Shown piece by piece: positions 3,265 to 20,462 of a stretch of DNA of 41,300 bases. The DNA is taken from the IMG/VR virus record IMGVR_UViG_3300026119_000010, positions 1 through 41,300 of that record; one strand, 5' to 3'. The stretch's first letter is position 1. The number at the start of each line of letters is the position of its first letter. The translations under genes and the position numbers were made by a program. A model generated the notes under the pieces. It was not told the origin of the DNA. It saw only the letters and a list, made by a program, of their open reading frames with translations, and searched no databases. The DNA comes from a virus.

Positions 3265-3310
3265 TCATTTCCTGTTCTGTATATGATAATACATAAAATT
3301 TTATACTATT

Positions 3311-3339
3311 AATATAACATAATTCCTTTACCAAGTCAA
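3311..3339 (-). promoter_or_regulatory. Sigma-70-like early promoter for uvsX
   Basis: On the minus strand, TTGACT (3334-3339), exactly 17 bases, then TATATT (3311-3316). The leader to the uvsX ATG would be about 40 bases. The rest of 3265-3415 holds only ORFs of 15 codons or fewer and no clear hairpin. Confidence 0.75.
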
Positions 3340-3415
3340 GTTCCTTTGGTAAAAAATTCTGACTAATATACTCATTTGATTGTCTATATATCGTTATTTT
3401 CACAATTCTCTATCA

Positions 3416-3496
3416 TTAATACCCAAGCCCTACTATAATTAACATTATAATTAAAACAACTACTACACCCATAAAAAAATTAAATAACATACTCAT
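3416..3496 (-). CDS. Membrane microprotein (26 aa)
   Basis: This ATG-TAA ORF of 26 codons starts two bases after the stop of the upstream methyltransferase gene, so reinitiation is likely. After MSMLFNFF the sequence is a run of V, I, L, M and G to the end: essentially one transmembrane helix with a two-residue tail. No ribosome site is visible beyond the tight coupling. It resembles in size and shape the 28-aa ORF on the other side of the methyltransferase (4737-4823), though the sequences are not clearly related. Function is unknown. An inner-membrane peptide acting on lysis timing, host membrane or a membrane complex is possible but unsupported. Confidence 0.6.
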   Translation of the reverse strand: MSMLFNFFMGVVVVLIIMLIIVGLGY

Positions 3497-3498
3497 AT

Positions 3499-4823: not shown

Positions 4824-5365
4824 ACTTCATTCCCCCAAACATCCCAACCATCGGTTTTCTGTCTAGCAAATAATTCTATTCTAGGTAAATCACCACATAG
4901 ATTAACTATATCATTTCTAATTCTATCTGGTTTTCTACTATGCTCTCTACGTTCACTCACTACTAATCTATCTACGTTACCACTTATTCTTTTTGGGTGT
5001 CCTCTAGTTGCTAAAATACATATCTCTGGATTTGCTCTAGTCCATAACCCAGGTCCTTTAAAATAATAATTTTTAATTCTCTTCTTGTTCATCTTCACCC
5101 AGTGAAAGGCAACCGTCTTATACGTAAATCCCCATTTCTCTACTATAGGAATCTGCTTATGTAATAATGGATCTGTACACCACATAAACAATGCACAATC
5201 TTTTTCTGCAATATCTCCAATTGGTAGTTCTTCAATCTCTTTCATTGTCATTGTTTTATAATGATGAATAGGATTTGTTTGTGCCTTAGCATTATTCCAG
5301 TTCTGGAAATGCCAAGGTGGGTCTGCATAAATTATATTATATGTCTTATCAATATCTTCCATCAT
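4820..5365 (-). CDS. MT-A70-family N6-adenine methyltransferase
   Basis: This 181-aa protein carries the MT-A70 catalytic signature DPPW at residues 15-18 (context IIYADPPWHF). Downstream are a FMWCTDPL strand (about 60), a WVKMNKK segment and the SERREHSRKPD block (about 137-147) typical of this family in phages. It probably methylates adenine in DNA; RNA is the other possibility in this family. Length is right for the minimal phage form. Its ATG overlaps the epimerase stop (ATGA). With the TSPPYF proteins the window holds three amino-methyltransferase-like genes and no restriction enzyme, consistent with protecting phage DNA or marking it. Confidence 0.88.
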   Translation of the reverse strand: MMEDIDKTYNIIYADPPWHFQNWNNAKAQTNPIHHYKTMTMKEIEELPIGDIAEKDCALFMWCTDPLLHKQIPIVEKWGFTYKTVAFHWVKMNKKRIKNYYFKGPGLWTRANPEICILATRGHPKRISGNVDRLVVSERREHSRKPDRIRNDIVNLCGDLPRIELFARQKTDGWDVWGNEV

Positions 5366-7846: not shown

Positions 7847-8789
7847 ATACCATCCTCTCTATCGGTCGCTTTGCTTTTTTCATTATATCATTTGGTATTT
7901 TCACCTCATATGTGTTCATCATTAATGATTGTAATATTCCTGGTAAAGTAATTCTTTTCATATGTGGACACAAATTACAAGGTCTAACAAATTCTACATT
8001 TGGATTTTCTATTGAAACATTATCACTCATTGAACACTCCGTAACCATTAATACTTTACGTGGTTGTTTTTCTTTAACATAATTGCTCATTTTAGATGTT
8101 GAACCTGTAAAGTCCACTTCAGCAATTACTTCTGGTGGACACTCTGGATGTGCTAATATAGTAATGCCTGGATTATCTTCTCTATATTCTCTAATTTCTT
8201 TAGCAGTAAATTTTTCGTGTACTATACAAGTACCGTGCCAAGATATAATTTTAACCTTTGTTTCTTTAGCAACATTTTTAGCAAGGTATTCATCTGGAAG
8301 AAACATAACTCTATCTACTCCCAACGATTCAATTATCTCAACTGCATTGGAAGATGTACAACAAATATCTGTTTCTGCTTTAACTTCAGCAGACGTATTC
8401 ACATAAGTTACCACAGGCACACCTGGGTATTTTTCTTTTAATAATCTTACATCTTTACCAGTAATAGATTCTGATAATGAACAACCTGCTTTAGGGTCTG
8501 GAATTAAAACTGTTTTATCTGGACTCATCAACTTTGCTGTTTCTGCCATAAAATAAACACCACACATCAAAATAGTATCTGCTGTTGTTTTCGCTGCTTC
8601 TTTTGCTAACTTTAAAGAGTCTCCAACTATATCTGCAACACAATGATATATCTCTGGCGTCTGATAATTATGAGCAAGAATAACTACATTTTTTTCTTTT
8701 TTTAATTTGTTAATACTTTCAACATAAGGAGCGTGAAACGGCCACTCAATCTCTGGTATAACTCTTGCTACTTTTTCATATGCACTCAT
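7833..8789 (-). CDS. nadA: Quinolinate synthase NadA
   Basis: This 318-aa protein is full length for NadA, which condenses iminoaspartate with dihydroxyacetone phosphate to quinolinate in de novo NAD synthesis. The ligands of the [4Fe-4S] cluster are in place: C76 ([12 protein letters not shown]), C188 (WHGTCIVH) and C274 (CNLCPHMKR). Other conserved segments are ILAHNYQ (37-43), DSLKLA (57-62), DPKAGCSL (98-105), HPECPPEV (214-221) and TGSTSKM (228-234). No residue expected for activity looks lost. No nadB or nadC is visible, so it would feed the host pathway. It sits 9 bases after a coiled-coil microgene inside the replication unit. Phage acquisition from a bacterium is inferred. Confidence 0.95.
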
Positions 8790-19438: not shown

Positions 19439-19888
19439 TTATTTAACTTGTATTGTTTTAAGTTTCTTTTCTTCTGGAATTACTTTTTCCATAGAAACTT
19501 TTAACAGACCATCTTTCAGTTCTGCACCTGTGACTTTTACATCACTAGCAATTGTGAAAGACCGTTTGAACATCCTTTTAGATATTCCTCTATAAAGAGT
19601 ACCGCCATTGTCTTCTACCTCTTTTTCAGCCTCGTCTTTAACTGATTCGATAGTCAACATACCATCCTCTACATCTACATTAATGTCTTTTTTATTAAAG
19701 CCAGCTAATGCTACTTCAATATCGTAAGTATTCTTACCAGACTTAACTATATTGTATGGTGGGTAAGACGGTTGTATATCGGATATAAAATCGTCATCAA
19801 ACATTGATTGAAAATTATCAAAGATTGAATCGAATCCAACCGATATTGGTCTTAACCTGTTAAAAATAGATAATGCTTTATTGGTCAT
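19439..19888 (-). CDS. Small heat-shock protein Hsp20 (alpha-crystallin family)
   Basis: This 149-aa chaperone holds unfolding proteins. The N-terminal region (about 1-40) resembles IbpA/Hsp20 (SIFNRLRPISVGFDSIFDNF). The alpha-crystallin domain (about 45-135) has YDIEVALAGFNKKDINVDVEDGMLTI in pieces, a YRGISKRMFKRSF strand and the LKDGLLKVSMEK signature (about 126-137). A C-terminal KTIQVK replaces the usual IxI tail. Hsp20 is a common gene of T4-like marine phages. It has a strong ribosome site (AAGGAGG, 5 bases before ATG) and follows a long structured leader. Confidence 0.95.
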   Translation of the reverse strand: MTNKALSIFNRLRPISVGFDSIFDNFQSMFDDDFISDIQPSYPPYNIVKSGKNTYDIEVALAGFNKKDINVDVEDGMLTIESVKDEAEKEVEDNGGTLYRGISKRMFKRSFTIASDVKVTGAELKDGLLKVSMEKVIPEEKKLKTIQVK

Positions 19889-20220
19889 ATAAACCTCCTT
19901 TTATTAAGCAAAGTTATCGTTTGTGAGCCCTTAATGGCACTCACTACTACTTATATAAGTACTAATTTACAAATTACAAGCAGCGCTGGTAATTTTATTT
20001 TAGAGAGTGTGAAATTACCAAAATTTCTCCTCTTGAAGCAGCCCTAGGCAAAACTAGGTAATCCACTTGGGTCGTAGGTTTTAGAGTCTCCCCAAACTCC
20101 TACAAAACTATTGAGGTTTTTTTATTGCAGACCTCAAACTGCAACCAGTTTTGATAAATTAATATCGGGACTGGCATTCCCTTCCACGCCCCAGGTCTTA
20201 TGAATTGCCTGGTATAGTAT
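19889..20220 (-). promoter_or_regulatory. Long structured RNA leader upstream of hsp20
   Basis: The 370 bases between rpsU and hsp20 hold no convincing long gene. Read on the minus strand they form a string of hairpins: CCAGG/CCTGG (20191-20212); AAACTG-GTTG-CAGTTT (20136-20151); TTGAGGT/ACCTCAA (20111-20137, sharing two bases with the former); GTAG/CTAC with inner GAGT/ACTC (20074-20103); CCTAG/CTAGG (20043-20058); a 9-bp TGGTAATTT/AAATTACCA (19987-20020); and GTGAG/CTCAC with inner pairs (19923-19943). AAGGAGG follows. A palindrome (19948-19961) contains TATAAGTA, and AATAAATA lies near 20223, each one base from a late box. It may be a cis-regulator or an independent RNA. Confidence 0.6.
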
Positions 20221-20253
20221 ATTTATTATCAAAGCACAGGCAAGGAAATGCAT
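20134..20253 (-). CDS. Possible 39-aa ORF at the start of the hsp20 leader
   Basis: An ATG-TGA ORF of 39 codons begins five bases after the rpsU stop. The peptide opens with a hydrophobic stretch (MHFLACALIINILYQAI) and ends in a polar tail. There is no ribosome site, and the second half coincides with hairpins of the leader, so it may be chance. Tight spacing after rpsU is the only support. Confidence 0.3.
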   Translation of the reverse strand: MHFLACALIINILYQAIHKTWGVEGNASPDINLSKLVAV

Positions 20254-20258
20254 AAATT

Positions 20259-20462
20259 CTATATTCTATCTTGTATAAGCTTTTGTTTCTTTTTCCAGTT
20301 CTTAATACCTTCTTTTTTCTTTTCACGTTTAATGAAAGATGGTTTTCTGTAATATTGTTTTTCTCTATATTCTTTCAATATACCAGCTTTAAGCATTTTT
20401 TTCTTAAGCACTCTCATTGCTTTCTCTACATTATCGTGTCTTACTTCTACTGTTATACTCAT
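20259..20462 (-). CDS. rpsU: Ribosomal protein bS21
   Basis: This 67-aa, very basic protein matches bS21: ITVEVRHDNVEKAMRVLKKKM at the N-terminus, GILKEYREKQYYRKPSFIKR in the middle, and a Lys-rich tail. bS21 sits on the small subunit near the anti-Shine-Dalgarno end of 16S rRNA and affects initiation. Phage copies are known from marine viruses including pelagiphage, and can be incorporated into host ribosomes. Its ATG overlaps the upstream stop as TAATG. It is followed by the structured leader and hsp20. Confidence 0.93.
   Translation of the reverse strand: MSITVEVRHDNVEKAMRVLKKKMLKAGILKEYREKQYYRKPSFIKREKKKEGIKNWKKKQKLIQDRI

Follow-up and report, generated by a model that had tools for sequence, protein, structure and literature searches.

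The 370 nt that separate the bS21 ribosomal protein gene from hsp20 are a composite and not one leader. A promoter-like sequence parts two elements on the bS21 side, A and C, from the predicted 5' UTR of hsp20. We consider it likely that the 55 nt nearest to hsp20 form a short ROSE-like RNA thermometer with a heat-shock-type promoter, the rest of the gap lying outside that UTR. Elements A and C, conserved as RNA structures, fit no tested family. The window, here and below, is the whole stretch of viral DNA that was analysed (41,300 nt, IMG/VR record IMGVR_UViG_3300026119_000010); the positions of its features are collected in Table 1.

A sequence-only reading of the window had described the gap as exceptional and rich in hairpins, and this was borne out. 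The gap is the largest spacing between successive minus-strand ORFs in the window, followed by gaps of 234 nt (at 3265-3498) and 193 nt. Folded as minus-strand RNA it reached -99.9 kcal/mol, compared to -84.6 ± 5.5 kcal/mol for 100 dinucleotide shuffles (z = -2.76), none of which was as low. The plus strand also gave z = -3.18, and the strand was therefore not chosen by folding energy alone. As that reading had proposed, the gap holds no tRNA, tmRNA or long gene (none by ARAGORN or Rfam; no ORF of at least 60 aa). The 9-bp hairpin stem that it had listed is real and corresponds to helix 2 of the pseudoknot within 20033-19987. Both of its late-box-like sequences are present on the minus strand, TATAAGTA at 19955-19948 and AATAAATA at 20227-20220, the latter one base off the coordinates given earlier. 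The 14-base palindrome, TACTTATATAAGTA at 19948-19961, is perfect. Most relatives carry TATAAATA in its place, so we take the palindrome to be incidental.

Relatives were collected from IMG/VR by hsp20 search (80 loci), by the element A pattern (47 loci) and by bS21 (80 loci), in overlapping sets. The nearest named records are the Pelagibacter phages HTVC008M and Mosig. Where a relative has both genes, the gap is mostly 210-390 nt long, and it is modular: next to bS21 comes element A, then hairpins that vary, then pseudoknot C, a stretch resembling a promoter and, ahead of hsp20, two hairpins. All three structured elements show pairs that covary across homologous gaps, which was the check named beforehand. 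In two relatives (L058 and L059) the gaps before hsp20 are near-identical over more than 100 nt including a long hairpin, ATTCACTAGG..CCTAGTGAAT, while element A and its surroundings differ; the shared stretch suggests recombination or a mobile hairpin.

Table 1. Features of the bS21-hsp20 gap and its flanking genes in the window.
Feature	Position	Strand	Description or support
hsp20 (small heat shock protein)	19439-19888	-	Pfam HSP20, E 1.2e-16
Gap between bS21 and hsp20	19889-20258		370 nt; both genes on the minus strand
Putative ROSE-like thermometer element, two hairpins, predicted hsp20 5' UTR	19892-19946	-	Pair counts; R1 match of 75.9 bits, by construction, as L004 with an identical gap is in the training set
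Hairpin 2	19892-19915	-	AACUUU-g-CUU..AAG-GAGGUU, bulged G at 19909; UUGCU pairs with Shine-Dalgarno AGGA
hsp20 Shine-Dalgarno	19894-19899	-	AGGAGG; sequence
Hairpin 1	19923-19944	-	GUGAGU-g-CC..GG-GCUCAC, bulged G at 19938
Predicted hsp20 promoter	19948-19980	-	CTTGTA (19980-19975), N16, TTATATAAGTA
Element C, H-type pseudoknot	19987-20033	-	Helix 1 AGAG/CUCU, helix 2 UGGUAAUUU/AAAUUACCA, A-rich loop 3
Element A: outer stem, box-bearing internal loop, inner hairpin with conserved loop	20173-20251	-	R2 75 bits, E 1e-15, with the identical relative L004 in the training set
Element A inner hairpin	20191-20212	-	CCAGG-CAATTCATAAGA-CCTGG; 88 elements, 34 distinct stems
Late-promoter-like box in the internal loop of element A	20220-20227	-	AATAAATA
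bS21 ribosomal protein gene	20259-20462	-	Pfam Ribosomal_S21, E 2.2e-12

The hsp20 leader is a conserved, covarying structure of two hairpins that lies directly before the hsp20 start. Its architecture was compared in 29 phage leaders, the motif uniformity of which is partly by choice because they had been picked by a regular expression for U(U/C)GCU. In all 29, hairpin 1 has a single bulged G, and hairpin 2 has 3-9 bp, one unpaired G and then CUU with AAG, with the Shine-Dalgarno sequence in the 3' strand. An alignment fitted to the model structure (A3, 56 distinct matches) had 97.1% of its cells paired, with 147 two-sided changes compared to 35.5 in shuffled controls and at most 21 when the partner was slid. 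Hairpin 1 alone had two-sided changes at six of its eight pairs and 98.2% of cells paired. The pairing with the Shine-Dalgarno sequence also covaries, for example in the inner CUA/UAG of S-CAM1. Leaders with the Shine-Dalgarno AAGGAGGTT mostly have AACTTTGCTT as their 5' strand. In L058 and L060, which have AAGGAGTT instead, that strand is AACTTGCTT, shorter by one base, and the pairing is thus preserved.

The motif facing the Shine-Dalgarno is UUGCU in the window. By eye it was recognized in 11 of 12 leaders from distant phages (Paride has UUGCG), and cyanophages and some pelagiphages have TCGCT in place of TTGCT. HTVC008M, Mosig (1-140,000) and the window together have 64 AAGGAG-N-ATG sites, and only the three at hsp20 have U(U/C)GCU ahead of them. 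Five leaders (L062, L065-L068) have CUGUCU at the motif position and no U(U/C)GCU. Their leaders differ, with a hairpin of GTGGGTGCTTTGGAAAGGCCCAC and TTAACTGTCTAACAAGGAGGTTAA that could also cover the Shine-Dalgarno.

A covariance model, R1, was built from eight pelagimyophage leaders (A2), which remained of twelve (A1) after L038, L052, L063 and L069 were dropped as out of register in MAFFT. On held-out distant phages, R1 found seven of 12 hsp20 loci, from OM43, cyanophage, Agrobacterium and Pseudomonas phages, with each match at the start of hsp20; the five loci that it missed (L219, L220, L221, L225, L229) all carry the motif by eye. Over 73 loci (345,574 bases), 67 of 69 matches were hsp20 leaders, and the two strays had E-values of 0.48 and 0.81. 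The hsp20 leader was the best match genome-wide in nine of 15 phage records (the window, two further IMG/VR contigs, Mosig, HTVC008M, Melnitz, S-SSM5, Paride and P-RSM6). The best match lay elsewhere in the contig of L073, Atu_ph07 and S-SSM7, and R1 gave no genome-wide match in S-CAM1, P-SSM3 and ACG-2014f.

The same kind of leader is found in SAR11 bacteria. One scan across GTDB genomes yielded 80 hsp20 loci, the majority from Pelagibacteraceae, and U(U/C)GCU stands ahead of AGGA in all 79 whose leader is long enough. Of these marine bacterial loci, mostly SAR11, 39 of the 80 fetched were given to R1, and all 39 matched at the hsp20 start (E 1e-8 to 0.004). In seven of seven SAR11 genomes the hsp20 leader was the best R1 match genome-wide. 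Some host loci (e.g. L246-L248, L251, L252) are on short or MAG contigs and may be phage themselves. In the hsp20 tree, pelagimyophage hsp20 stands beside several marine bacterial copies; branches are long and few forks are firm, and no direction of transfer was drawn from it for this reason. One possible RNA thermometer is noted for SAR11 strain HIMB5, the gene not being named in section 12 of that source (PMC6429828). It may be the hsp20 one.

Upstream of hairpin 1, TTG-N18-TATAWW was present in 25 of 29 phage leaders, and CTTG at the N16 spacing in 23 of the 29 phage loci and in 69 of the 79 from hosts. The host promoters read CTTGAA-N16-CCATAT, close to the alphaproteobacterial heat-shock consensus. 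The putative promoter of the window has the geometry of the SAR11 hsp20 promoter (CTTG-N16-xxATAT), and CCCATATAAATA is kept in Mosig and L069.

Element A was first defined by its inner hairpin. A regular expression for the loop, with at least four pairs, found 88 non-redundant copies that share the loop C-A-R-T-T-C-R-T-A-A-G-W (conserved loop CAATTCRTAAGW). Because the expression itself selected for them, the constancy of the loop positions and of pairs 1-4 is in part a matter of choice; this does not apply to pairs 5-7, and pair 5 is formed in 32 of the 34 distinct stems compared to 17.2 in shuffled ones. Outer and inner stems were counted together in a MAFFT alignment of 19 sequences (A5), left from 26 (A4) after removal of L030, L032, L052, L058, L216, L192 and L194 as out of register. 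In this alignment 93.9% of cells were paired, with 28 two-sided changes compared to 6.7 in shuffled and at most 9 in slid controls. Model R2 matched in 30 of 38 further loci at E < 0.1, several of which share a group with training sequences, and recovered four that the loop expression had missed (L026, L040, L044, L053). Element A occurs once per genome: its pattern was single in seven of ten records, and R2 agrees. Since R2 gave only weak matches in seven SAR11 genomes (best E 0.08), we regard element A as phage-specific.

The distance from the bS21 stop to the loop is 38-59 nt in most relatives, 18 nt in L035 and 320-434 nt in L073, L076, L077 and L184. A small gene lies between bS21 and element A in L073, L184 and HTVC008M, and in HTVC008M a diverged copy of A follows gp110. 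The gp110 product (L003:2496-2831) has a weak winged-helix match (HTH_39, E 0.019, below the cut-off), and proteins that look similar occupy this place in L073 and L184. A second hairpin with a CTCGTAA loop directly follows element A in HTVC008M (L003:2815-2900) and in L073 (2820-2880), as if duplicated; this like-looped hairpin suggests that the loop is recognized by something. Mosig carries element A as well, about 1.5 kb from hsp20. The intervening gene Mosig_00013 (L002:3476-4447) encodes 323 aa with no confident Pfam match. Similar spacings of about 1.5 kb were seen in L168, L179-L183, L196-L197, L199 and L202.

A box, NATAAATA or TATATATA, precedes the loop by 9-15 nt in 87 of the 88 elements. 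The T4-type late promoter is given as TATAAAT (PMC3037559), and the box is placed roughly so that transcription from such a promoter would begin at the inner hairpin. The idea that a T4 late promoter alone explains the conserved bases was considered, and was kept for the box of element A only.

Element C, the sole match of our pseudoknot descriptor in the window, was analyzed in two MAFFT alignments (A6 and A7) of relatives of like geometry from different clades, neither of which includes a window-type sequence. With nine sequences in one of them, 92.2% of cells were paired and eight two-sided changes were counted against 2.0; in the seven sequences of the other clade, all cells were paired, with 16 changes against 5.3. 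Both helices contribute to these counts, and the signal is lost on sliding. The descriptor is loose (72 matches in the loci compared to 22 in shuffled copies), and its best match is not element C in every locus, e.g. in L027, L030, L045, L058, L064 and L073. It found none in HTVC008M and two elsewhere in Mosig. One clade (L036, L040, L043, L045, L053, L055, L057, L059) has a conserved CGGYGTYGCWAA-like string after a variable hairpin, directly before pseudoknot C.

Known structured RNAs do not account for the gap. No Rfam family reached the gathering score in the window, and only chance-level matches appeared over the gap at E ≤ 10. Over 14 relatives, Rfam gave only the glutamine riboswitch and one tRNA, both outside the gap. 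The sequence-only reading had brought up manA and wcaG as classes, and this suggestion failed: neither model (RF01745, RF01761) matched in the window, and manA, which served as a positive control, was found in related phages far from hsp20. In Mosig it lies at 108164-108371 (L330; 64 bits), just upstream of a putative rubrerythrin gene, with hsp20 at 7917-8366. It was below the cut-off in the contig of L073 and in HTVC008M (G008:C1:121974-122182; W02 5037-5223), and was also found in five cyanophages (W05, W06, W07, W10, W11). SAM-II (RF00521) was rejected for element C, its model being without a match at C in 15 records. Like C, SAM-II is an H-type pseudoknot. In some relatives C has, as in SAM-II, UGAU after helix 1 and UGAYAAA after its partner; these motifs are absent from the window's own element C. 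A glutamine riboswitch follows hsp20 in two pelagimyophage-like contigs (L059:1510-1560, L032:1622-1670). It is also present in Mosig and Melnitz, where it is known from PMC9004378; for this group, PMC7029224 reported no riboswitches.

The sequence-only reading had raised, among other options, a heat-responsive cis-regulator of hsp20. Good support for this is limited to the last ~55 nt. Transcription from the heat-shock-type promoter (19980-19948) would start at about 19947, just before hairpin 1, so that the hsp20 5' UTR would be little more than the two hairpins. At low temperature, hairpin 2 would pair UUGCU with the Shine-Dalgarno AGGA around the bulged G and limit ribosome binding. Warming would melt this weak hairpin, and Hsp20 synthesis would rise. 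In isolation, the minimum free energy structure of hairpin 2 is the proposed fold, bulged G included. The 78-nt UTR folded whole adopts another structure, the Shine-Dalgarno being unpaired to 40-46% between 4 and 42°C with hardly any dependence on temperature; in the 370-nt fold, the Shine-Dalgarno end of hsp20 pairs with a far upstream stretch. We therefore infer the temperature response from the architecture and from the tested Pseudomonas relatives. The phage has the promoter geometry and the kind of leader of SAR11 hsp20 genes. The two other conserved structures, element A by the stop codon of bS21 and pseudoknot C, would belong to the 3' flank of bS21 or to a longer transcript made by read-through.

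The UUGCU hairpin could instead be a static damper of translation, or an mRNA-stability hairpin, that holds Hsp20 at a low constant level. The lack of a clear temperature dependence in the fold of the 78-nt UTR would agree with this, as would the small temperature swings that a phage meets in the open ocean. We nevertheless regard a static role as quite improbable, given that the bulged G and U(U/C)GCU recur before hsp20 in very distant phages and in SAR11 hosts, and that, across the three genomes scanned, the motif is absent before every other AAGGAG start site. Moreover, isolated hairpin 2 has only marginal stability (-5.8 kcal/mol at 15°C, -2.1 kcal/mol at 37°C), and the same architecture has been shown to sense temperature in Pseudomonas (PMC3669281). 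Read as DNA, the TTTGCTT before hsp20 resembles the MotA box consensus and might be a middle-promoter box of the T4 MotA type. We give hardly any weight to this. A Shine-Dalgarno and a start codon follow downstream and no -10 box does, cyanophages and some pelagiphages have TCGCT, and the motif is present in SAR11 hosts too. MotA as the sole reason for the conserved bases was rejected on these grounds (the missing -10 box, the host occurrence) together with the covariation of the Shine-Dalgarno pairing.

Other arrangements of the gap concern elements A and C. The whole 370 nt could be one ligand- or protein-responsive hsp20 leader, transcribed from upstream and with A and C as sensing domains. 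Both elements covary, the order A, C, thermometer is held in most relatives, and Melnitz has, by eye, a C-like pseudoknot just upstream of hsp20. Against such a leader stand the promoter-like sequence of fixed spacing that lies between C and the thermometer, the loss of C in some relatives (L052 by descriptor, L027 and L030 by eye), the distance between A and hsp20 in Mosig and the lack of a match to any riboswitch family in the gap, and we think it unlikely. Somewhat less doubtful is a separate small RNA that would start at the late-type box of A, have the inner hairpin at its 5' end and pseudoknot C at its end. The near-constant position of the box before the loop and the single copy of A per genome fit this, and in L073 the box comes right after the stop codon of the preceding gene. 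The covarying outer stem of A, however, needs RNA from upstream of the box, and a terminator after C is not established. Just as tentatively, A and C could act in cis. Element A, promoter-bearing and with a loop that would probably be a recognition site, would together with C set how far bS21 transcription or message reaches into the heat-regulated hsp20, coupling a ribosomal protein and a chaperone through an as yet unclassified phage RNA of marine T4-like phages.

The hsp20 gene is listed as a core gene of T4-like cyanophages (PMC3037559), and it is frequent in the SAR11 phages examined here. If the hsp20 mRNA senses heat directly, chaperone synthesis would be timed to temperature or folding stress without a regulator, by the same device as in SAR11. 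Taken together, the leaders of SAR11 and its phages offer a large set of naturally occurring variants of a single putative RNA thermometer, from seas both cold and warm. Isolated phages carry elements A and C or are close to phages that do (Mosig has A, HTVC008M a diverged copy), which opens their function to direct test.

Among structured RNAs of marine T4-like phages, manA and wcaG are known classes; neither matched in the window. According to PMC2864571, ibpA chaperones are among the genes downstream of manA. The phage RNA thermometers cited in PMC11182007 (lambda cIII, SPbeta blyA and a gut-phage sigma70) likewise make translation of a phage gene responsive to temperature. None of those cited there is on a small heat shock gene; blyA and sigma70 are of the fourU type, and none of the three is described as ROSE-like in that source. 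A search of the open-licence literature for thermometers in phage, cyanophage and SAR11, for ROSE and for hsp20 gave no description of a phage hsp20 thermometer among the papers listed, and term searches of PMC2704228, PMC7029224 and PMC9004378 gave no mention of thermometers or hsp20 regulation.

The marks of ROSE-like elements are U(U/C)GCU facing the Shine-Dalgarno, a bulged G and the Shine-Dalgarno in the last hairpin (PMC11182007). Such elements comprise two to four hairpins and usually, though not always, precede a small heat shock gene. The window element has a bulged G opposite the Shine-Dalgarno, two hairpins of which the last contains the Shine-Dalgarno, and a small heat shock gene downstream. 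For the ROSE_3 model (RF02523), the genome-wide best match fell on the leader of hsp20 in Melnitz (34.1 bits, E 1.6e-6), P-RSM6 (23.7 bits), the contig of L073 (22.7 bits) and S-CAM1 (14.8 bits). None of the 19 sequence records searched reached its gathering score of 43 bits, the 12 distant phage loci were likewise below the cut-off, and the window, Mosig and HTVC008M gave no match. We therefore call the element ROSE-like by its architecture and not a member of ROSE_3. The closest known system is ibpA of Pseudomonas, a short two-hairpin ROSE-like element in a 61-62 nt UTR behind a sigma32 promoter, of which the second hairpin melts (PMC3669281). With ibpA and ROSE_3 the window element shares two hairpins in a UTR of about 60 nt, the Shine-Dalgarno in the second of them, U(U/C)GCU, the small heat shock gene and a heat-shock-type promoter. 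The ROSE_3 consensus has a single unpaired G in both hairpins, as does the window element. Unlike Pseudomonas ibpA and ROSE_3, the window-type element is carried by phages and by SAR11.
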